Below, piece after piece: positions 353-46,574 of a stretch of DNA of 64,000 nucleotides. Source of the DNA: Escallonia rubra (taxonomy: Eukaryota; Streptophyta; Magnoliopsida; Escalloniales; Escalloniaceae). The stretch is taken from the NCBI GenBank assembly GCA_033065855.1, contig JAVXUO010003201.1, forward strand, positions 1-64,000, in the 5' to 3' direction. Made by a program: the position numbers and the translations under genes. Position 1 is the first letter of the stretch. Every line of letters begins with the position of its first letter. Under the pieces are notes generated by a model that saw only the letters and a program-made list of their open reading frames with translations, was not told the DNA's origin and searched no databases.

Positions 353-2847
353 CTAGATACTTGTGTTCTTTGAACTTTTGTTTGAAGTTGTCAAGTAGTA
401 TTTCAATTGAACCACTAAAGTGATGTACTCGCTATACATCTGTGCCAGCAGCTGTCCAGGCTCGTCCTCCCTTAGGCTATCATATATTTGAACCGTTCTG
501 AACGCTGGATGGAGAACTAATAGGAACCAGTGGTTTGCATGATGACAAGGTATCATGATAAGGTTCGCATCAGCAGCGTGACATTGATAGTTTGCGTTCA
601 TCATGCCTAACACGTTTCTACCTGGTTTCCACTTACCCCTGCCGCCCCCTCACCTCCATTCTGTGAATTCCCTCACCGTTAATTCCACAAAATGAGTGGG
701 ATACGTGTTAAGCTTCAAATATTCAGAACGGTTAAAATGTTGCTCTCTAATCCGGAGCAGATCTATGTAAGCGTTCATGACAAAATTTGAAATATCTGTC
801 TCCGGCGCCAACGTTCTGATATCCTCATGACCTAGGAATGTCACAAGAGGAAAGTCTGTTGAATTGATAGACTCATGCCCGAAGTAGTGCCGGTCGATCC
901 AACCCATCTTGTCCGACCTCAATGGCTTCGTCGCTTGTCCTTTGTCCGACCGGATGCTTGGGCGCGAGGCCTGGATTCCTACTTGGGGAACCTGACTCTG
1001 GCACTGAGAGTCATATGCGTCAGGAGGCAATCGACTATACGGCTCCTAGAATTCATAGCTATTCCATGAAGACGCGTCGGGAGGCAAGCAACTAGACGGC
1101 TCCCACACCTGACTCTGGGGCTGAGAGTCGTACGCGTCAGGAGGCAAGTGACTAGACAACTCCCCTTGGTAACCCCGGTACGCAAGACTAAAGTTTTGAA
1201 CTTCAGTTTTGTACCTCTCAATGGACCTCTTGAGATTGTCAGGAGCCTGCGCGACAAACCAGTCAAACGGCTCCAGCTGCTTGAACACCTCAGTGCCCTG
1301 GTCAACCTAAAAAACATGCATAGAAAATATGGCTAATCGTTTCAGGCATGGTCGATAAGGTGCGCAAATAAATTATCAAACAACACTAGCATGACTTACA
1401 ATGGCCAATGCCCAGAACTGGTCATAGACTTCACGTGGCGCATACGATGTCTTCTTCACCTGGGAAGGGCGATTCACCCTCGTGCGCGTCACCCTGAGAA
1501 ACCACTGTAAGTATTCCTCAATACTAATGCCGTCGTGCTTCAGCGATACAAGGCTATCATACGTTTCCTGCCAGGTATTCCACTGTTGCACCTCGTCACC
1601 CAACAAAATCAAGGCATCAGCCACCTCGAAGTTCGACCCTCGACCACCCCTGTATGGTCGCATGTCTACAGTGGGTTTTGGTATCCCTTGTGGATAGCCA
1701 ACTTGCCTCATAGCTCGATCGGGCATCTGAAACTCACATTCTTTGAAGTGAATGAGCGGCACCCGAACCAAACCTGCCAGCACGTACGACACCGGAAGTT
1801 GCCAACACCACTCATCCAACAGATGCATCACCTTGCCATATGGCTGCCACGTCACCTGGGATGCATCCAGTATCTCTAGTTCCCCCGATAAAACTTTAGA
1901 TGGTGGTGAGGGTCTACCCGTCTCCTCCTCCGGTTGGTCGTAGGCCCCCAGGCCCACACCCTAGGCCACGTCTCATCGGAATCTACCAACGGTTGTGGAC
2001 GACCCGTGGGTAGCCTCTCGTAAGACCAAACCTGTGAATGCAAACATTATATGGAATTAGTAATTAATCCCGAATATATTGACTAAGGATCCTACCAAGA
2101 AAATAAATGCTCATACCTGTAATAGAGTCAGGCAGGCGGCAATGGACTTGGCACCATTTCTCGTAGCCTTATGCCGTGCTCGATATAGTTGCGCAAGCAC
2201 AGCTGAACACCACGAATACAAGTATACCTCATCAAGGTCCTCCAAGAACACCATATACTTCGGGTGCACAGTGTTTTTCGAATGCGTCGAAAGTAATATA
2301 GCTCNTATAGTATACAGAATGAATGCCTTCGTATACGTCACGAAATCATGAGGAGTGTATTCATCCGGTAGCAAGCCGTACTGCTCTCTTAGCCATTTAA
2401 GCTTGACGCCGTTTGTTGTAAGAGCTGCCTTGGAATTCCCAGAAAATACTGCCTAGCCATATTCGCTATGGATGCAGACGGCACGTTCAGAGTAACGGGT
2501 CTGCCGTGACATGGGATTCCAAGTATATATCCGACGTCCTCTAACGTAACAGTCATTTCACCAAACCGGAAGTGAAATGAGTTCGTCTCGCTCCTCCATC
2601 GTTCAACTAGAGCGGATATAAGGCAATCGTCGTGTCGAGACCATTTCCCGCAATCGGTGAACATGGTTAAATTTTGACGGTGTAATAGCTGTATTTGTTC
2701 CTCGTTTAGTACCCACTCTTCAAGGTGACTTGTGCTCTGAATTGTTTCCAAAACACCCCTATCGACACCGTCAAATACGTACCTCGCGACGTGGTCATCG
2801 TCATCGTATAGGATTGATGTATCATGAGGTCCAGGGCTGACATTCAT
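353..2847 (-). pseudogene. Plant mobile domain + Ulp1-like (C48) protease gene, decayed
   Basis: This minus-strand gene begins near 2847 and runs to about 353. The first segment (2847-2389) reads as the N-terminal part of a plant mobile domain (PF10536 type), with GRPVTLN and a GYILGIPCHGRP loop. Segments 2374-2111 and 1957-1376 continue the domain, ending in a VPLIHFKECEFQMPDRAMRQ motif. At 1046-1290 and near 985-1030 an LPPDAYDSQ-x-QSQV peptide is repeated in a low-complexity linker. The last segments (1030-650 and 613-353) look like a C48 cysteine protease: NHW supplies the His and YDSL the Asp position. Plausible introns lie at about 2116-2033 (ends gtatga/cacag) and 1398-1307 (gtaagt/tttag). 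Frame breaks occur near 2440 and 1950, so I call it broken. PMD-Ulp1 fusions are typical of transposon-borne genes (MULE or Ty3/gypsy). I found no element ends, so the host class is unknown. Confidence 0.75.
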
Positions 2848-4342: not shown

Positions 4343-4396
4343 TGAAATAAATTATTCTAAAAACTTGGGAAATGGAAAATAAAAAGAAATTACCTA

Positions 4397-6670
4397 ATCA
4401 TCCGCAAGTATTTTAACGTCCGAGTCACTGCTCTTTCTATCATCAATCGATTTATCTTGCTCGTGATATTTCACGTCAAGATAATCCTTCCAACATACAC
4501 ATAGCTCGAGCGACTCGGGGTTAAGCCGACTCCTCCTGTCATCCAAAACCCTCCCGCTCGCTGAAAATGCTGACTCTGAAGCAACCGTGGAGGCTTGCAC
4601 CGGCAGTACATCCCGTGCAATTTGGGCTAAAGTTCTATACATGTTTTGATTTTGTTTCAAAAAACCTAACAAATTAAAATCAACATGTTCTTGCATCGAT
4701 AAATTAGCATAATGATTAGAATTGGAATATAAACCAATCTCATTAAAAGAGGAAAAAGTAGACGAACCGGCCGTATTAGAAGTACCTTCACCTGGTAGTT
4801 GTCTTGCTACTAGATGTTCGAGGCCCTTAAGGTATGGCGCATAATACATCTCACCAGTCGATGATGAAACCCGCCCACGCACGTCAGCGGAACTATTATA
4901 GAGGTTGAACAGATCCTCAAATTTCTTGCTCACTTTCGTTGTGAGTGTAGTTGTGTCTTCTTGTGTGTAGTTCATTAGTCTTTCAATCTCTTGTATCGAC
5001 ACATTCACGCCATGCAACTTTGACCTAGGATCTAAACAAGTAGCCATAACAAAAATAACAGGCAATTTCTTCCAATATTTATTAAATTTTTTATCCATCT
5101 CTTCTACTATTTGTTGAAAGGGTCCTATATATCTCCATTTTGTTAACATTGTAGCCATCTTGAGGATTTCTATTATAGCGATAGGGGAAGTGGGATAGTA
5201 CGTACCAGATAATAAATTGATAGATGTGTAAAATACCTCAAAAAATTCAGATAGTTATGTAGCCATCTGCCATTCTGCCTGACTTGGCAAGCCGGCTGGG
5301 AACGAGGTTAGTAGATAATGCGTATAAACTTCTTTGTATGCCAGAACATGTAAAAGCATATGGTATGTAGAGTTCCACCTGTGGGCCACATCTGTAAGTG
5401 GTCTCCTGCGAGGCATATTGTAATGAACACACAACGTTTTAAAGTGTTGTGTTCTCAGACCTGAACTATTAACATACGCTGTCATACCCCACTTTTTGAG
5501 AAGAATATCTCCTGCAGCAGCTAAACCATCTTGAACAATTAAATTAATAATGTGACAAACACAGCGAACATGAAATAATTCACCATTAAGTACAGGTTGA
5601 AGCGTGTCCTTTAAAGCTGCAACAACAGCTTTATTATTAGAAGCATTATCAAAACTAACACTCATAATCTTATTCTTTATTTTAAATGTGGTACATGCAT
5701 TAATTATAATACTAGCTACATTATTTGCATCATGCGGAAAAGGAAATAGTTCGAATGCGATGATTCTTTTGTTCATAACCCAATCAACATCAATCCAATG
5801 GGCCGTCACACAAGCATAACTAACAAAAGTAAACGGAGATTGCCAAATAGCAGAAGTAAGACTAACTCTACCGTCAAGCGTGTTTTAGCAGCATAATACT
5901 GCCGGAGTGCATCAGATCTAGTGGTGTTTCGTGTAACCTTTTTGTACAAAGGTTGCACGTAGGTGTTCATATATCTGGAGTGCTTAGGATTATCGGCAAA
6001 ACTAAAGGCTTGTTCAGCATGAATAACAAATTCAGCGAGACCGTCTCTTTGTTCTCGCTGATTATAAACAAATAACTTATCGTCAAAGGATAACTGCGTT
6101 TGGCTAGGTTCGACGTGGCCGCTTCGAGGTGCACACATAAGGTAATGCCTGTTAAGATGTCAATTACCAGAACCAGTGGTAAATAATTTAGTACAGTACT
6201 TACATCGAGCTTTTCGGGCGCCGTCCACCGTAATTTCATCAAAATGATTCCAACACTTAGCTTTCTTTTTTCACCTTGTGGACTTCTGGCTGACTACTGG
6301 AAGTATTGCTCGGCCCTTCTCCATCACGACTGCCCATCGGGTTAACATTATGCCACGGAGTAGTAGCTTCGCCAACCGAGCTGCGTCCTTGACTATAATG
6401 CGGGGGGTCTTGTGAAGGCGTGTATTCAAAATCTGGAATATTTTGATTGAACTCCCAATTGGCTTGGGTATCTATCATACAACCTGTACTCATTCGTCCA
6501 GGAACGAATGGTTGTGGTGGTGCTTGGATTGGTGTTTGTGATGACCGTGGCGGTGGAGCTTGTGCTGGTGGTGGTGTTTGTGATGATGATGATGATATTT
6601 TTCGTGATGGTGATCCACGCCGGAATTTCTTGAGTATTCCAGACGGATTTGATGCTAAACTGTTTTGCTA
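4397..6670 (-). pseudogene. hAT-family transposase, broken
   Basis: This is a minus-strand transposase of the Ac/hAT superfamily. From the N-terminus it has a low-complexity Ser/Pro-rich leader (about 6670-6257). Next comes a BED zinc finger near 6240-6140, with CKYC and the H-x3-H pair of HLNRH. The RNase H-like core spans 5880-5255, with SFDNASNN and the CHIINLIVQDGL stretch. The C-terminal hAT dimerisation domain lies at 5160-4394, with VASESAFSASGRVLDDRRS and L-x-P-x-S. I see three disabling changes: a TGA between the Cys and His pairs of the BED finger, a frameshift near 5877 and a TAA near 5252. Otherwise the domain order and length fit an autonomous element. It is adjacent to a hAT-type terminus at 7716. 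Confidence 0.85.
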
Positions 6671-11158: not shown

Positions 11159-11400
11159 TTTATCCTTGGGTTAATTACAAAACTGTCCCCTGAGGTTTAC
11201 ACGTTTTTGCACTTTGCCCCCCGTGTTTACAACTTTTGCAATATTGTCCCTCGAGGTTGACAAAACTGTTGCAAATAGCTCCAAATTTGGACGTCCGTTC
11301 AATTTTGGACGTTAAGTGATCATGTACGGTGCACATGCCATTTTGGCATGGGCAAATTTGTAATTTCCCTACCTATCTTCCCACTGTGTTCATCTCTCTC

Positions 11401-11906
11401 TTTTCATTCTGGCCGTGTCATCTTATGGCAAGGATTTCGCAATGATCTCAAAATCTGTTAGAACAAGGTCCAGGGATCAGTGTAAGGTCTTTTTTAGCAA
11501 AGCTCGCAAGTGCCTTGGCTTGGACATAATGCGTCCTAGGCACGAGAATGGAGGAACACCCACGAGTGATGATGCAAATGAAGGTGGGACTGATGAGGAT
11601 GCTTGTATCGTGGAGGCCGACTCTGTTGTTTGCAGTGACAATTCTGCCTCTAAGATGGACGAGGACCTCCTATTGTCTGATTTCAAAATAAAGCATGATG
11701 AATCTGATTCTGTACGAACCCTGAATTCGTATCCTGATTTGAATCAATCAAAGGAGAACATTGGGGCACTAGAAGTGGACTGTAAAGGCACCCCAAAAGA
11801 CACCAGAATGGAATTTAAACAAGATGATATACATACAAAAGACTTGATATCAACACCCCTGTTCCTTAAACCTACGTGGATTCAGCTCAAAATCCAATCA
11901 ATTTAA
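11401..11906 (+). pseudogene. PWR: Captured fragment of a POWERDRESS-like SANT co-repressor
   Basis: This plus-strand frame begins just inside the left TIR. It encodes the second half of a SANT/Myb domain (AVSSYGKDFAMIS, VRTRSRDQCKVFFSKARKC, LGLD) followed by an acidic, Ser-rich stretch ending at 11906. The pattern matches the SANT2 region of plant POWERDRESS/NCoR-like proteins, which partner histone deacetylase HDA9 in histone deacetylation; that is family knowledge. The rest of that ~1,500-residue-class protein is absent and there is no obvious native start codon. It could be transcribed as a chimeric RNA but cannot encode the full protein. Recognition is by eye. Confidence 0.7.
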
Positions 11907-12442: not shown

Positions 12443-12480
12443 CATAGAGAGAGTAATGAACACAATGGGGAAGATGGGAT
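11907..12480. repeat. Pack-MULE interior: unidentified captured sequence and a TA microsatellite
   Basis: Between the PWR-like frame and the right TIR are two short possibly coding pieces on the minus strand (about 12193-12070 and 12360-12205). I cannot assign them. A (TA)n tract runs from about 12366 to 12439. The 'open frames' of alternating Ile-Tyr here are only the microsatellite. Confidence 0.55.
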
Positions 12481-12692
12481 AGGGAAATTACAAATTTGCC
12501 CATGCCAAAATGGCATGTGCACTGCACGTGATCACTTAACCTCCAAAATTGAACGAGCGTCCAATTTTGGAGCTATTTGCAACGATTTTGTCAACCTCGG
12601 GGGACACTATTGCAAAATTTGTAAATACGGGGGGCAAAGTGCAAAAACGTGTAAACTTCAGGGGACAGTTTTGTAATTAACTCTTTATCGTT

Positions 12693-13080
12693 CCACAACC
12701 ATGTGGTTTTCCCATCCCCCACTCTGTGATGAATGAATTCCTGACATTGCTTTCTAGTCTTTAGCCATGATAACAACACAGGTGGCTTGAAAGTCCACAT
12801 ATGTTGATATTTTATTATGTACATATGGTACATTTTGACCCATAGTGAATCTCTCTTGTGTGTTAGATCCCATAGGTGCTTGCACACTGCAGCCTTGTTC
12901 CATTCTTCCAATTTTTCAATTCTTAGTCCCCCCCTCTTTTTTGGGAAGACATACATCCTTCCAAGCAACCTTTGCCCCAGTACATTTCATTTATTTTCCA
13001 TGCCATATAAAAGATCTTACCTTCTGCTCAATTTTGCTTTGTAATTCTCTTTGGTAGTATGAAAATAGGGCACCAATATA
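12693..13080 (-). pseudogene. LINE ORF2 middle segment between two insertions
   Basis: This minus-strand segment resumes the LINE frame after the CACTA target duplication (ata). It encodes the thumb/connector region: FPKKRGGLRIEKLEEWNKAA, then WLKTRKQCQEFIHHRVGDGK and TWLWND. The matching region in the plus-strand LINE at 7.75 kb has the same VGNGK-x-W signature. It ends at the 9-bp target duplication of the Pack-MULE at 12684-12692. Confidence 0.8.
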
Positions 13081-13094
13081 CACTACAAGAAAAA

Positions 13095-13490
13095 ACTTTT
13101 TTTTTGCAACGAACTTTTAGGGACGGAATGGATTCCGTCGCTAAAAGTCACCTTCAGCGACGGAATTAACCGTCGCTAAAAGTCCGTGGCAAGAAGTCTT
13201 TAGCGACAGGCTCATCCGTCGGTAAAAACCTTCATCGACGGCTTTTTACCGGCAAAATGTTAGCGACGACTTTTCCGTCGCTAAAGTTTTTAAAAAAATT
13301 CTAATTCTCGATCATCATTTTTAATTTTTTTAAGCGACAAAATAATCCAGTCGCTAAACATTCTGTTGCTAAAAATTATTTTAGCGATAGGAATTTTCCG
13401 TCGCTAAAAATGACCGTCGCCTAACGTCTTAAAAATTATGCTTTTAGCGACAAACTTTTAGCAACGAAATATTCCGTCGCTAAAAGTCAT
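13095..13490. repeat. CACTA left subterminal repeats
   Basis: The word 'ttagcgacgg' and its complement 'ccgtcgctaaa' alternate at least a dozen times, often as head-to-head pairs that could fold. The same words occupy 18425-18800 at the other end. In CACTA elements such subterminal arrays are the binding sites for the TNPA-type protein. Confidence 0.9.
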
Positions 13491-14759
13491 GTCTTAGAAG
13501 CCCTAATTTTTCCCACAGTCGCAAATGCCCATCGCCCTCCACACTCCCATTCTCTTAGCTCCACAGCCCACCGCCTCCACCGCCTCCACTGGCCACTGAC
13601 CACCACCTTCATTCCCTCCACCGGCCACTGCCTCCATCTCCTTTTTTCAATCGCATATGAACAGATGACAAGGCATCTGTAGCAATGCCGCCACCGCCTC
13701 CATCTCGCAACGCCACCGCCGCCTCCATCGTCTTTCTCGGGCAGATCTATCACTGCGCCTGGTATGTCATCTACCATTGCCTTCATCTCTCAAATCTACC
13801 GCTATTTGATTTGTCGTGATGTGTTAGATAACACACTGTTTGATGCGAAATTATGTTAGATGCCTTTAAGTTTTGTTGATGAGCAAATTGAGCCTTTGCT
13901 TGTTAAATGCTTGAATCTCTATGATAGTCTGCTATTTGAGATGGTCCTATTGTTGAATCATTAATTCTGACAATGTTTTCTGATAGATGGTCCTATTGTT
14001 GAATCATTAATTCATTTTATAACGTACTTTAATTAAATTTCTGCCAATTATAATGCTCGGATCAGATAAAATTGTTTCTCACTAAAACCATGTGAACTCA
14101 GTTTCTTTACTCTTTGTCTTCGAATTCGTGCTTGGTCTTTTCCAACTGTGAGGCAAAGGACATGCATTTCTTACGTAATTACATTGTTGAGCAATCAGGT
14201 GCTAGGGAATTTTTTAATATAATCTTCTACTTTTGTGTGGTCTGCAAGATTAGCCTAACTGATTTGTGATTGTTGAATGGGTTTAGCGGTATAGGATTCT
14301 GTGCGTTTTGGCTTTTTTATTAAGAGTTTTTCTAAATCTCACCAATGCAGAGGAATATAACTGATTTGTGATTGCTCAATGGATTTTTGATTGCTGAATG
14401 GGTTTAACAATTAGGTGTTGTGGAATTAAACAGTGATATACGGCTTCAGCGATAAAAATTAGGCTTTTCCTGGCTGGATAGTATTAGGTTTATTTGCTTA
14501 TGTCAATGGTCCAGAGTATTTGCTTATGTCAATGGATTTCTCAGTTTCTATAGCCAATTATTAATAAGCAAGATACCTTTTACTAAGTGATGATTTTCCA
14601 CTTAATTCTCAGAAGGAACTGGATCTTTTTTAAGAGTGTTGGACATGAAGTATAAAACGTTGGTCCCCAACTAGAATTAATGTTTCATCTGGATCAAACT
14701 ATGAGCTAATGGAAGCTAATGTCACAATTCTCAGAGTTACTGCTAAAATGGCATGCTAA
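13491..14759. other. CACTA interior: leader-like region and AT-rich sequence
   Basis: The stretch at 13500-13790 is rich in CCACCGCC words and resembles a plant 5' leader or Pro/Ser-rich first exon. It is followed by ordinary AT-rich sequence without a usable frame. A possible donor (gtatgt) at about 13760 would suit a first intron. I cannot name the gene. Confidence 0.4.
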
Positions 14760-16259
14760 ACTAATAGCAAATTAGCCATTAATCTAAGTAAACCAAATTA
14801 ACCCTAATCAATCCCTAATTATCCCTAATCTAACCAATTAATAGTAATTAACCCCGAGTAACCTTAATTGAACAAATTAACCCCAACTAAACCCGATTAA
14901 CCTAACTGAACCAATTAACTGTAATTAACCCTTATTCAACCTAATTGAACCAATTAGCCCTAATTAATCCTGATTTACCCTAATTGAACAAATAAACCCT
15001 AATTAGCCTTGATTAATTCTAACTGAACTAATTAACCGTAATTAGCCCTATTAAACCTATTTAACCTATTTGAACCAGTTAACCTTAACCCTTAAACTCT
15101 AATTAAATCCTAATTAGCCCGAATAAACCCTAATTACCCCTAATTAACCCTAATTAATCCTAAGTACATCCAAATTACTCGAATTACATCCGAATTAGCC
15201 TAATAAGCCTGAGTACATCCAAATTATTCGAAGTACATGTTATAATTATTTTGATTATATTTTTTGTGAAATGTCCTCTATTCCATTAAATGCAAAACTT
15301 ACATGCCTATGTTTATGTACATTTTACATAGTACACTAAACCCTCAATTAATCTATAGTGTCCATTTTTCATCAATCCCCCATGCCCTGCATGAGTGCTA
15401 TATTCTTGGCATTTGCTGTGACTTGTTGAATTATTCTGGTTATAGTTAATTAGAATTTTTTTTTCAATTTATTATTATTTCTAAGTGTTCTTTATGATTT
15501 TCAGAATTGTTGTAATGTGAAGTTTTAGAAATTGATACCTTAGCCCCTTTGATTGGTAGTTAGGAGTCACATGGAAATTGAATCCCTCCACAAGGAGTAA
15601 CCGTAATTTTGTTCTTTTATTAACCCCGATTAACCCCTAACACATCCCTAGGTAACCCTAATTAACTATAATTAACCCTAACTCACCCTAATTAAACCTA
15701 GTTACTGATCACCCCTATCAACCTTAATTAACCCTGATTAACTATAATTAACTCAGATTCACCCTAATTAAACCTAATTAACTATTATTAAACCTAAATA
15801 ACCCTAATTAACCCTAAGTAAACATAATTAACCCCGATCAACCTTAATTAGCCGCGATTAGCCCTAAATTAACCACGATTAACTCCTAACACATTCCTAA
15901 GTAACCCTAATTAACCCTTAGTAAACATAATTAACCCCGATTAACCCTCAATTCACCCCAATTAACCCTTAGCACATTCCTAGGTAACCCTAATTAACCC
16001 TAACTAAACTCTAATTAAACCCTATTAATATATTCCTAATTATCCTAAGTATAATCTAGTCCCTAACTATATACTTAAACCCTGGACTCAATCACAGGTG
16101 GGACAATATCAACTCTACGAATGAACTCAATGAATTCTAAAGTGACTCAATCCTAATTAACAATAGTTAAGTCTAATTAAACCCAATTAACCCTATTTAG
16201 GTTGAATTAGCCCTCATTACCATTAACCCTATTTAGCTCGAATTAGCCTTATTAGCCCT
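14760..16259. repeat. Degenerate CCCTAATTAA repeat field
   Basis: For about 1.5 kb the sequence is dominated by variants of 'aaccctaattaa', with irregular 10-14 bp spacing. It is interrupted near 15190-15600 by unrelated sequence. The words resemble plant telomere repeats but carry extra TTA, so this is not an interstitial telomere. The field continues into both arms of the palindrome at 16260-17905. Confidence 0.75.
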
Positions 16260-16699
16260 AATTGGCTCTAATTAGCCCTAATTAAAACTGATTAACCCTA
16301 ATTTACTGTTAACTTAATCTCTAATCATCCCTAATCACCGCTGATAAACCTAATTAAACCCTGATTGTCCTGATAAATCGTAGACAAACCCTAATTAAAC
16401 CCAATTAGGGTAATTAACTGTAATATGTTCTAATTAGGCTTAACTAGCCCTAAGTAGCCCTAATTAATCCCTGAATAACACTAATCGAGTCTAATTAAAC
16501 ACAATTAACTGTAATTAACCCTAAATAGCTTGAATTTTCATAATTGCCCCTAATTAACACATTAACTCGGCATGTCACCTTAATTAGCTCTTATCTATTT
16601 TGGTTCGGTACAAAATCATTTGGTTATAGTGAACTTTAGCTGAGAAAATCATAATTTTTAAATCCTTTAATATTTAACGATCCTCCAAATTAGGATTCT

Positions 16700-17040
16700 C
16701 AAGTAAACCCGGTGCTCTTGGTTGATAAGTTATGGACTCAAAAAAATTTCTTAGCGCGTCATGTTGAACCATCTCGTCTAAGATCTTATCTTCTGAGACT
16801 TCAGATAACACTTTTGGCTCGCAACTCTCCATGTCTGCAGAAGAGAAGACTTTCTGAAATAAATTAAAGGTCTTTCTCAGCCTGTCGTAGACATTTCCTG
16901 CCCTCTGTTGTTCCTGAGGTAATTAGATGGTATAAATACACAGTTTTCTTCTGACCCATCATGTATGCCCGACATATGGCTTGCCTTTCAACTAATGGGT
17001 TCCAACCAATATCAAGCAAAATAACTCTCGATGCCCCAAC
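16700..17040 (-). pseudogene. CLSY: CLASSY-like SNF2 helicase C-terminus, left arm
   Basis: Read on the minus strand from 17040, the arm encodes VGASRVILLDIGWNPLVERQ, then the helicase motif VI region AICRAYMMGQKK, YHLITSGTTEG and RQAEKDL, before a frameshift and TAA. After the shift the frame continues to EDKILDEMVQHDALRNF. This order and spacing match the extreme C-terminus of SNF2-family helicases. The VERQAI...QKK...YHLITSGT...QAEKD...MVQ pattern is characteristic of CLASSY 3/4-type proteins, the Pol IV recruiting remodelers of RNA-directed DNA methylation. This arm keeps the motif VI Gly-Gln, so it is the less decayed copy. Only about 110 residues are captured. Confidence 0.72.
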
Positions 17041-17143
17041 CAGGGCCGATTAGGCTAATTCGAGCTAAATAGGGTTAATGCTAATGAGGGCTAATTCGAG
17101 CTAAATGAGGTTTGAAAGGCAAGCTATGTGGGGCATAAATTTG

Positions 17144-17443
17144 GTTGGGGCGTCGAGATTTGTGTTGCTTGATATTGGTTCCAATCCATCAGTTGAAAGA
17201 CAAGCCATATATCAGGCATACGGGATTAGTCTGAAGAAAACTGTGTGTATTTATCATCTAATTACCTCAGGAACAATGGAGGGCAGGGAAAGTCTGCGAC
17301 AGGCTGAGAAAGATCTTTTGTCTCAGAAAGTCTTCTTTTTTGCAGACATGGAGAGTTGCGAGCCAGAAGTGTTACCTGAAGTCCCGGAAGATAAGATCTT
17401 ACACGAGATGGTTCAACTTGACGAGCTAAGGAAAAATTTTTAG
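17144..17443 (+). pseudogene. CLSY: CLASSY-like SNF2 helicase C-terminus, right arm
   Basis: The mirrored arm keeps an open frame (VGASRFVLLDIGSNPSVERQ, YHLITSGTMEG, RQAEKDLLSQKVF, EDKILHEMVQLDELRKNF, stop at 17443). Motif VI is destroyed: the conserved R-A-Y-R-x-G-Q pattern has become QAYGISL, and the WNP tryptophan has become Ser. An intact frame with lost catalytic residues suggests the protein is not maintained, whereas nucleotide similarity to the other arm is retained. It has no promoter-proximal start that I can defend. Confidence 0.72.
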
Positions 17444-17905
17444 TCCTTTACTTACCAACCAAAAGCACCAGGTTTACTTGAGAATCCCGATTTGGTGGAT
17501 CGTTAGATATTAAAGGATTTAGGAATGATGATTTTCTCTGCTCAAGTTCACTATAACCAAATGATTTTGTACCGAACCTAAATCGATAATAGCTAATTAA
17601 GGTGAAAATGCCGAGTTAATGCGTTAATTAGGGGCAATTCGAGCTATTTATGGTTGATTACAGTTAATTGCGTTTAATTATACTCAATTAGTGTTATTCA
17701 GGGATTAATTCAGGCTACTTAGGGCAAGTTAAGTCTAATTAGAACATATTACAGTTGATTACCCTAATTGGGTGTATATAGGGTTTGTCTATGATTTATC
17801 AGGACAATCAGGGTTTCATTAGGTTAATCAGTAGTGATTAGGGCAGGTTAGAGATTAAATTAACAGTAAATTAAGGTTAATCAATTTTAATTAGGGCTAA
17901 TTGGA

Positions 17906-17970
17906 TTTTGAATTAACAGTAAATTAGGGTTAATCATTTTTACGTGGCCTCCCCGGTATGACTTCACGTG
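17906..17970. other. Junction between palindrome and transposase-like exon
   Basis: The 'aattaacagtaaattagggttaatca' type words are repeated here once more, a short direct duplication of the arm edge at about 17860-17885. No gene is visible. Confidence 0.4.
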
Positions 17971-17972
17971 AC

Positions 17973-18229
17973 GTGGTAGGAGCGTCCTCACCCCCCGCTG
18001 CATCTCCACAGACGCAGACACCGACCGTGGAGCACTCGTCGTTACATAAGGACGAGGTCTGTCGCATTGCTGCAGAGGTTTATAGGAGGATCACGAGACA
18101 TAATCAGGTACAACCACTATATACGTTTAATTAGTGAACATTATACGATTGTTATCAAGATTAATGCGTTTTTGCCTTTACATGCAGGGCACTGTTGCTG
18201 TACATGCCCCGGGACTCGCCGAACCCTGA
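17973..18229 (+). pseudogene. Transposase-like 3' exons (CACTA gene remnant)
   Basis: The frame from 17973 encodes VVGASSPPAASPQTQTPTVE, then HKDEVCRIAAEVYRRITRHN. It ends at a good donor (cag/gtacaacc, 18107/18108). The next exon (acceptor tgcag, 18187) reads GTVAVHAPGLAEP and stops at 18229. This Ser/Pro/Thr-rich tail plus short helix resembles the C-terminus of plant CACTA-associated transposase genes. No upstream transposase domain remains in the element. Its position before the right subterminal repeats fits a decayed transposase gene. Confidence 0.45.
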
Positions 18230-18424
18230 TTAACCATTCCCCTCGTTAGCTAGCACTTTGTATCCCACTCCCATTCCCCCCTCCCCCCCCCCCTGGCCTT
18301 ATACCACGCTCCCCTACTCTATTAATGTACCCAGCTCCCGTGCCCTTTTGAATTTTGTATACATTTTATTGTTGGATTGTAATTACAGGTTTAGGTATTA
18401 AAAAAAATTAAATTAAATTAGTTT
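18230..18424. other. CACTA interior 3' sequence
   Basis: A C-rich stretch including a run of about 10 C near 18285 is followed by AT-rich sequence. It is probably 3' untranslated sequence of the transposase-like remnant. Confidence 0.35.
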
Positions 18425-18800
18425 GACTTTTAGCGACGGACTTTATTCCATCGCTAAAAGTCTAGCTATTTTAAAGGACGAGTTTAATGACGGACGCTAA
18501 AGTTTTAAACGACAAACATTTAGGGATGGAATTTTGTCGCTAAATATTTTACGCAATAAATTATTACCGAAGAAATAAATTAAAATACAGAAAATAGAAT
18601 TAGCGACAGAATCTTCGTCAGTAATTGTGTTTGTTTGTCCGTCGTTGAAGGTGGACTTTAAGCGACGGATTATAAAAATCTGTCGCAAAACTTTGAGAGA
18701 CGGGGTTGTAGGCAGCAGAGTTTTAGTGACGAGTGTTCCGTCGCTAAAACTCTTTTCCGTCGGATTACGGACTTTTAGCGATGGAATTATCCATCGCTAA
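18425..18800. repeat. CACTA right subterminal repeats
   Basis: This array of 'tttagcgacgga' and 'tccgtcgctaaa' words in both orientations mirrors 13095-13490. It is more degenerate than the left array. Confidence 0.9.
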
Positions 18801-18823
18801 ATGTCTTTTTTCTTGTAGTGATA

Positions 18824-44784: not shown

Positions 44785-46574
44785 ATGGATCTCACTCTCT
44801 CATGTCTACTGCTCTTTGGGCTACTCTATGCATCTTTCTCTTTATTCTTCAACTTCCGTAAAAAGTCCCCCCCTGACCAGAGATATCCTCCTGGCAATAC
44901 GGGTTGGCCATTTATCGGAGAATCGCTTGAATACGTCGCCTCAGGCAGGAATGGCACTCCCGATAAGTTCGTTAGAGAGAGGATGGACAAGTTCTCACCG
45001 GAGGTATTCAAAACCTCCATTGCCGGAGAAACCGTAGCAGTATTCTGTGGAGCAGCGGGTAACAAGTTTTTGTTCTCCAACGAGAACAAGCTTGTGGCCT
45101 CCTGGATGCCATCCACATTCCTCAAGATCATCAATGCAAAAAAGAGCGAAACCGGCGCTATCTTACAGGGAAAAAGGCTGAGAAGTATGCTCCCGGAGTT
45201 CCTCAAGCCGGAAGCACTTCAAAAGTATTTGCCAGTCATGGATCGCATGGCCATGCAACACTTGGAGAGAGACTGGAGTGGTGCATCTAATAAGCAAGTT
45301 AAGGCTTACACCCTAGCGAAGAAGTTCACATTCGAGACGGCGTGCCGGGTCTTTATGAGCGTGGAGGATCCCAATCAGGTGGCGAGTTTCGCAACCAACT
45401 TTGGCCTCGTCGCTGCTGGGCTCTTTGCCGTGCCAATGAACTTCCCTGGCACGACATTGCGTCGTGCAATAAAGGCCGCCGATCACATCAGGTACGAGCT
45501 GTCGACTATCCTCAAGGAGAGAAGGAGGCAATCGAATGAGAAAACAGATATGGGAACTCCCGATCTTGCTTCCCACTTACTGCTTTCCGCGGATGAGGAT
45601 GGCAAATTCTTGACAGAGATCGAGGCTGCTGAACTGATCTTGGTCATACTTTTCGCGAGCCATGATACAGTGACCGCTGCTATTACTTTCGTTGTTTGCT
45701 ATCTTGCAGATCATCCTGATGTCTATGCTCAAGTCGTCAAAGGTAAATCCCAATCTCAGGGTGAAATTCATGCTTTATTTCTTTCTTTACTCTGTATCTG
45801 AAACAAATCAAATCGTTGACATGCACCTGCAGTTATTTTAAACCCAACAGCAACGTCTCCTAAAAACAGATAAATAATCCATTCTGTTTCCGCATCTCCT
45901 GTAACTAGAGCTGTTTCCTGACAATTAACTGACTGGCTTCCATTTTCCTTAAACTTGGTTTACCTTCGAAATAGAACAAACGGAGATTTCGAACTCCAAA
46001 GGACCAAGAGAGAGGTTGAATTGGGAAGATGTCCAAAAGATGAAGTATTCTCGGTGCGTTTTAAATGAGGTATTGAGGATACAACCTGTTGCTCCAGGAA
46101 CTTTCAGAAAAGTTATTAAGGATTTCACTTATGCGGGCTTTAAGATACCAAAGGAATGGAAGGTGAGTTTTCACTATTTCTACATAAAACCTTCTTCAAT
46201 GATTTTTGCTTCATATTACAGTGTAGTTCCATGCACGTATAGATTGATCCTTGTTGCCATAATCACAATCACAGGCCTTTTGGAGCGTTTATTCAACACA
46301 CAAAGACCCAAATTACTTTCCTAATCCGGAGAAGTTTGACCCGTCAAGGTTTGAAGGAAATGGACCAGTACCATACAGTTTTGTACCATTTGGAGGAGGA
46401 CCCAGGATGTGCCCCGGCAACGAGTATGCCCGTCTAGAAGTACTGATCTTCATGCATAGGTTGGTCACAAAGTTCAAATGGAAGAGGTTGAATCCAAATG
46501 AAAAGATCATCATTGAATTATCTCCGGTTCCAGTAGATGGTCTTCCGATTCAGCTCTTCCCTCACAAAAGTTAA
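44785..46574 (+). CDS. CYP716: Cytochrome P450, CYP716 family
   Basis: The gene has three exons: 44785-45742, 45975-46162 and 46275-46574. Introns have gt...ag ends (gtaaat...aatag and gtgagt...cacag). Joined, they give 481 residues, normal for the family. An N-terminal membrane anchor ([18 protein letters not shown]) is followed by the proline-rich hinge [17 protein letters not shown]. The I-helix reads FASHDT in place of the usual A/G-G-x-D/E-T. ExxR (EVLR), the FDPSRF motif and the heme loop [10 protein letters not shown] with its Cys are present. Close resemblance to CYP716A enzymes ([31 protein letters not shown]) suggests an ER-bound triterpene oxidase, such as oxidation of a beta-amyrin-type scaffold. 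The substrate is inference. A truncated tandem duplicate is at 28970. Confidence 0.92.

Follow-up and report, generated by a model that had tools for sequence, protein, structure and literature searches.

A long palindrome made in part from the 3′ end of a CLASSY3/4-like gene lies inside a non-autonomous CACTA transposon of Escallonia rubra, and related elements carrying such a CLASSY fold-back form a dispersed family in the genome of this species, probably of single origin. We describe the founding observation in a 64,000-nucleotide stretch of contig JAVXUO010003201.1 (the window) and its extension to the whole genome. Taken together, the findings are rather probably best explained by a CACTA that captures genes and whose hairpin could supply siRNAs against its own family and against CLASSY.

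The features of the element, in order of position, are the following.

13081–18820, no strand: non-autonomous CACTA element of 5740 bp, with the target site duplication ATA at 13078–13080 and 18821–18823
13081–13500, plus strand: 5′ terminal and subterminal repeat region with TTAGCGACGGA-like motifs, read directly
14780–16560, plus strand: degenerate TAACCCTAATTAA minisatellite, from direct reading and self-matches; its final ~300 bp are the outer left arm
16189–16265, plus strand: segment A, whose inverted copy makes up most of the loop (87% inverted match to 17036–17112)
16267–17042, minus strand: left palindrome arm; 16575–17042 is an antisense CLASSY fragment with its frame broken by a 4-bp insertion
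17036–17141, no strand: loop, with the inverted copy of segment A and a near-duplicate, ~27 bp by eye, of the coding stretch for VERQAI
17105–17443, plus strand: open frame of 112 aa, a CLASSY3/4-like C-terminal helicase piece by its protein matches, with motif VI lost
17142–17905, plus strand: right palindrome arm, with a sense CLASSY fragment at 17113–17605 and inverted minisatellite at 17620–17905
17942–18208, plus strand: family-specific segment 3′ of the palindrome, defined by genome matches and used as the non-CLASSY comparison
18400–18820, plus strand: 3′ subterminal region and 3′ terminal inverted repeat, common to other CLASSY-hairpin elements as judged from related tails

Both ends of the CACTA element are intact, as a preliminary description of the window had stated: CACTACAAGAAAAAA and TTTTTTCTTGTAGTG form terminal inverted repeats at 13081 and 18820, flanked by ATA on either side. 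The element was inserted into a LINE; when the flanks are joined, a reverse-transcriptase frame crosses the site for ~17 codons before a stop, and the LINE continues beyond it in another reading frame. A scan for open frames of at least 110 aa lying fully inside 13081–18820 returned the CLASSY piece and no transposase. With CACTA terminal repeats, a 3-bp target site duplication, a captured host gene fragment and no transposase of its own, the element has the makeup of a Pack-CACTA. Heads related to 13081–13500 occur at six loci including the window (mean distance 0.30 at 60% coverage), and tracts resembling the TAACCCTAATTAA minisatellite are found in many related elements. The CCCTAA core of this minisatellite is telomere-like.

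Three other features of the window were recorded. An inverted pair of 202 bp (11170–11371 and 12480–12681; 93% identical, 1.1 kb apart) surrounds a SANT/Myb-like open frame at 11415–11906 and may be a further element carrying a gene; inspection by eye showed no clear target duplication there. Positions 44785–45801 hold a piece of a beta-amyrin-oxidase-like (CYP716-type) P450 gene with many Escallonia relatives; it matches an E. rubra protein at 100% identity across 49% of its length. On the minus strand, 4394–6138 contains the remnants of a hAT transposase (Dimer_Tnp_hAT in 4397–5158).

The palindrome is far beyond chance, with two arms of ~770 bp as previously described and a loop of 99 bp, first given as ~95 bp. 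Alignment of 16267–17042 with 17142–17905 yielded 680 matches, 78 mismatches and 24 gap columns, an identity of 89.7% free of gaps and of 84.1% over 1664 columns with gaps counted; six perfect runs reach at least 21 bp, the longest 35. The earlier figure of about 85% pairing holds for the inner piece (16866–17042/17142–17318), and the two outer pieces are higher, at 89 and 90%. Among inverted repeats of at least 60 nt within 6 kb, the two longest of the 64-kb window belong to the palindrome. The predicted RNA fold of 16575–17605 has an energy of −690 kcal/mol with 423 arm-to-arm pairs, compared with about −250 kcal/mol for five mononucleotide shuffles. The gene accounts for just the inner ~470 bp of either arm; the outer ~300 bp are minisatellite of the TAACCCTAATTAA type. 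Segment A lies directly left of the left arm, and the resulting order of A, B, inverted A and inverted B is not the product of a simple inverted duplication of A+B. The palindrome could have originated through template switching during repair, or through a tandem or circular intermediate.

Protein comparisons bore out the proposal that the captured SNF2 segment is of CLASSY 3/4 type. The right-arm frame matched CLASSY 3 of Camellia lanceoleosa (59% over 92%, E 6e-24), and the left-arm read-through had RJ640_012966 of E. rubra as the best of its 37 listed protein matches (90% across 71% of the fragment). Every legible CLASSY number was 3 or 4 (10 of the 37 left-arm and one of the three right-arm matches, with 100 and 7 candidates scored, respectively), a count of names and not a placement in a tree with CLSY1/2 and DRD1. 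The RJ640_012966 gene is present in two places of the genome, C1563 (100%) and C2428 (99%), which are either haplotigs or recent duplicates. What was captured spans motif V (INLVGASR) to the stop codon and continues into the 3′UTR. A consensus of 34 arms retains the CLASSY reading frame and is 91% identical to the host coding sequence, with 33 of 374 sites differing, 20 of them at codon position 3.

An origin of the SNF2 piece from another helicase, with a palindrome unrelated to CLASSY, is very improbable. The PDB matches of the right-arm frame are generic SNF2 proteins with no CLASSY among them (best E 6e-6), as such an origin would allow, but the 91% DNA identity is to one E. rubra CLASSY3/4-like gene, a piece of whose 3′UTR is also present, and none of three other SNF2 loci in the genome shares a perfect 21-mer with the 69 arms. 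Pfam gave no match for the right-arm frame, and a scan of viral contigs with P0001 found nothing.

The helicase motifs of the window's captured piece are not intact. As had been noted, the right arm has lost motif VI, reading QAIYQAYGISLKK where P0001–P0003 have QAISRAYRLGQKK, and the left arm is frameshifted by its 4-bp insertion; the piece is therefore not a working CLASSY. The host CLASSY gene (L009 ~1910–1970, minus strand) has an in-frame tandem duplication, SEDKILYSEDKIL, inside the captured stretch, and this duplication is missing from the 11 transposon arms shown in the alignment. At two further loci, L005 and L007 (on C1853 and C1461), a different CLASSY exon (host aa ~189–341) is represented by separate fragments with stops, 87–88% identical to the host gene and lacking an inverted self-match; L007 additionally matches the CACTA tail over 129 bp.

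The structure of the captured piece bears on the route of capture. An 80-nt piece of host 3′UTR in the transposon, 87.5 and 88.8% identical to the two host loci, lies ~670 bp further along in the host. By eye, the transposon's coding and 3′UTR parts join at a GGA microhomology without GT-AG ends, and we conclude for this reason that DNA was captured and shortened, not cDNA. Capture through a spliced RNA was ruled out, the absent ~670 bp of host 3′UTR having no GT-AG ends and the join showing the GGA microhomology.

We searched the E. rubra genome (566,129,122 bases in 3222 contigs; the published draft is given as 566 Mb in 3233 contigs in the text available of its report, PMC10759652) with the host protein. 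After 61 of 533 first-look candidates were scored, 62 rows were obtained, 50 of them the C-terminal fragment, at at least 46 loci by our own count with the two host loci excluded; the window's own copy is missing from these rows, so the list is incomplete. Thirty-eight of the 46 loci were retrieved, the others being C1337, C384, C2772, C1094, C1745, C420, C2270 and C680. A head-to-head inverted pair with at least 100 nt per arm is present at 30 of 39 loci, window included, with loops of 57–1334 bp; these loci were picked by similarity to host CLASSY, so the fraction is a biased sample of the CACTA family. The search for other copies that the preliminary description had proposed thus uncovered a family with the hairpin. 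One locus, L036, holds five CLASSY arm pieces of mixed orientation in an array within 2.9 kb.

The window and 7 of the 18 ten-kb copy loci have a pair of terminal inverted repeats with identical 3-bp flanks, which at one of the seven, L021, are a weak TTT; six of these eight loci contain the inverted pair. Tails related to 18400–18820 over more than 100 nt occur at 15 of the 18 ten-kb loci (70–82%). The segment 17942–18208 gave 697 first-look candidates, of which 40 were scored at 87–92% (the window itself at 100%); this figure and the 533 above are unscored candidate counts and not copy numbers. CACTA transposase gave 2228 first-look candidates, 150 of them scored. Dozens of transposase frames on many contigs have an identical score and open frames of 761 aa, and another set has 875 aa, which points to CACTA elements having been active very recently in E. 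rubra.

The loops point to a common ancestry of the fold-backs. Each of the 33 loops tested, from 30 loci, contains an A-like segment spanning 27 to 156 nt, and for this reason the palindrome most likely arose once and was then amplified. A single origin is a strong inference, given that segment A is itself minisatellite-like and that the 57-bp loops match over only 27–42 bp.

The arms have been diverging for some time. In a tree of arms of at least 360 nt (30 arms and two host rows), the arms are star-like, with 3 of 29 inner branches well supported and a median end branch of 0.043, and the host sits on a long branch (100/100). The right arms of the window's subfamily form a weak group of their own (77/93), and the two arms of L011 pair with each other (100/98). 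Under assumed rates between 2.5e-9 and 1.3e-8 per site and year, the window's arms would have separated ~4 to 22 million years ago. Decay, conservation and 21-mer counts were made on 69 arms with matches of at least 250 positions. G>A and C>T together account for 364 of 743 changes from the arm consensus, and C>T rates are 0.111 in CG, 0.097 in CHG and 0.061 in CHH, a pattern that would be expected of long-methylated DNA.

We next consider what a transcript of the fold-back could target. A perfect 21-mer shared with the host gene (C1563 locus) is found in 61 of 69 arms and at 38 of 39 loci, and a perfect 24-mer in 50 of the 69 arms; jointly, the perfect 21-mers cover 207 of 396 nt of the host's captured coding stretch. 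The window's own arms have three and two perfect 21-mers to the host, and 225 of 448 and 212 of 473 of their 21-mers match it with at most three mismatches. On sequence grounds, then, the hairpin arms would be able to hit CLASSY, and similarity to the host gene is sufficient for the targeting originally envisaged. Arms of different loci share a mean of 34.8 perfect 21-mers, threefold the 11.6 shared with the host gene, which makes the family itself the better target.

These counts bear differently on the two RNA-based roles that had been put forward. In the first, siRNAs from the hairpin lower CLASSY3/4, weaken Pol IV recruitment and RdDM, and thereby helped the CACTA to multiply. The captured gene is indeed that of an RdDM factor, the fold-back recurs at most of the loci retrieved, the arm consensus is close to the target coding sequence and perfect 21-mers are almost universal among the loci. 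There is also a precedent in rice, where the available text describes a CACTA fold-back highly similar to OsDRM2 and miR820-dependent cleavage of OsDRM2 mRNA (PMC3459959), and rice and maize Pack-CACTAs are described, in the portion available, as mostly low-copy (PMC8903248). Against this role, the copies resemble each other more than they resemble the host gene, high copy number may have other causes in a genome where candidates for CACTA transposase are so abundant, and the conservation tests below gave it no support; we consider it doubtful. In the reverse role, double-stranded RNA made by the fold-back would guide methylation of the CACTA family in the manner of Mu killer, an inverted duplication that silences MuDR (PMC3440606, from the accessible part), with CLASSY as a bystander. 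The threefold excess of shared 21-mers and the strong C-to-T decay in all contexts are in its favour, and it is at least as possible as the first role. However, the arms are host gene and not transposase, and the family spread despite the palindrome. Moreover, the gene-derived portion of the arms and the segment that follows the palindrome show equal CHH C>T decay (0.061 and 0.062; 0.078 in the outer minisatellite), so arm-directed RdDM leaves no clear trace. We regard such a trap as possible, tentatively so.

The preliminary description had proposed testing whether the arms are more conserved than the rest of the element. They are not: in a paired test on 26 loci, divergence at AT sites was 0.0361 in the arms and 0.0353 in the neighbouring segment (P=0.67), and at non-CpG sites 0.0585 and 0.0659 (P=0.25), with the arms lower in 12 of 26. 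This null is conservative, because choosing loci by likeness to CLASSY favours conserved arms. A first comparison without CpG had suggested more conserved arms (0.090, versus 0.115 in the minisatellite, 0.119 after the palindrome and 0.144 in the tail), and this failed in the paired test. No 24-nt window of the arms stands out as conserved (lowest O/E 0.55, permutation mean 0.548). Nor do the two arms of an element co-evolve: identity was 0.882 within and 0.888 between elements (27 pairs, restricted to loops below 400 bp and arm matches of at least 250 consensus positions; permutation P=0.99); taking all pairs together, maintenance of the arms by gene conversion or compensation is thereby ruled out. 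Exceptions to arm independence are L011, whose arms pair in the tree, and L013 and L024, whose arms are 93–94% alike. A coding function of the fragment was likewise ruled out, with near-neutral O/E of 0.94, 0.93 and 1.10 at the three codon positions and an open frame kept in 9 of 63 arms. These results suggest that no function is being preserved copy by copy and that decay of the present copies is nearly neutral; they are compatible with a role during the spread, exerted by a few source elements.

The same tests speak for a passive passenger, an inverted capture that arose as a structural accident and was spread by the mobility of the element with no effect through RNA. Near-neutral decay, the lack of co-evolution and rearranged multi-arm arrays such as L036 all fit this history. 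On the other hand, neutral decay of old copies says nothing about the time of spread, and persistence of the fold-back at 30 of 39 loci is uninformative in either direction because one origin suffices. We take the passenger history to be a serious possibility, falling somewhat short of an even chance.

The reading we favour, a gene-capturing CACTA with a hairpin of siRNA potential, combines these elements. In all likelihood, a non-autonomous, gene-capturing CACTA lineage took up the 3′ end of the host's CLASSY3/4-like gene at the DNA level; the fragment became a fold-back, most likely once, and transposase acting in trans spread it to the at least 46 listed loci and probably to many more. A read-through transcript of the fold-back would be diced into siRNAs, with the family itself as main target and host CLASSY as the second. 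Our confidence in the anatomy and history is very high. The odds that at least some copies produce siRNAs appear evenly balanced, and a net anti-silencing benefit during amplification seems unlikely. Of the original proposal, the CLASSY3/4 identity, the targetable similarity and the hairpin family stood, and the suggested test of arm conservation came out negative.

Among known systems, the closest precedent is the rice miR820 element. Like it, the E. rubra family is a CACTA with a fold-back that resembles part of an RdDM gene and was multiplied along with the element, and the host gene is a target, here a potential one. Unlike it, the E. rubra family captured CLASSY3/4 and not DRM2, has gene arms of ~470 bp (770 bp in total) in place of a miRNA precursor, shows no conserved small-RNA window, is known from its sequence alone, and occupies at least 46 loci besides the window, as against five copies in rice Nipponbare and at least 18 in the BB genome according to the available text (PMC3459959). 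With Pack-CACTA and other Pack-TYPE elements it shares non-autonomy, CACTA terminal repeats, target site duplication and captured host gene sequence; it differs in that the capture is inverted-duplicated and high-copy, unlike the CACTA Pack-TYPEs of rice and maize in the source cited above (PMC8903248). Maize Mu killer is likewise a long inverted duplication from which a hairpin RNA is possible in principle, but there part of the transposase gene mudrA is duplicated at one locus, going by the accessible part of the report (PMC3440606), whereas the E. rubra arms are CLASSY and minisatellite, with no inverted duplication of the element's own transposase, in a dispersed family. A 2026 review of gene capture describes siRNA reservoirs from captured genes and the anti-silencing proteins VANC and KIU, and reports that captured-gene siRNAs of maize Helitrons, Pack-MULEs and Sireviruses affect related transposons and donor genes (PMC13317346). 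The passages considered do not present these reservoirs as long fold-backs made from an RdDM gene, and the terms miR820, hairpin and RdDM do not occur in its main text (PMC13317346). Among the listed titles and abstract beginnings of open-licence PMC full-text articles, we found no description of a CLASSY-derived transposon hairpin. CLSY3 is required for the 24-nt siren siRNAs of Arabidopsis ovules, as stated in the accessible part of that study (PMC8752594).

For the study of such elements, the neutral-decay tests indicate that a striking palindrome is by itself no evidence of function. In the literature considered here, the idea that transposons repeatedly steal RdDM genes for use against the host rests largely on one worked case, miR820 and DRM2. 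The E. rubra family has the same architecture with a different RdDM gene, is present in dozens of copies and has one identifiable source gene; a related species, E. herrerae, has also been sequenced. It is a long shot that this asterid shrub harbours a second, independent CACTA lineage armed against RdDM with a long hairpin of CLASSY3/4, the Pol IV recruiter, whose siRNAs would have lowered CLASSY in a past burst that spread the family; the perfect matches left at 38 of 39 loci might then still tune CLASSY. If true, RdDM genes would be a recurrent capture target of CACTA elements.
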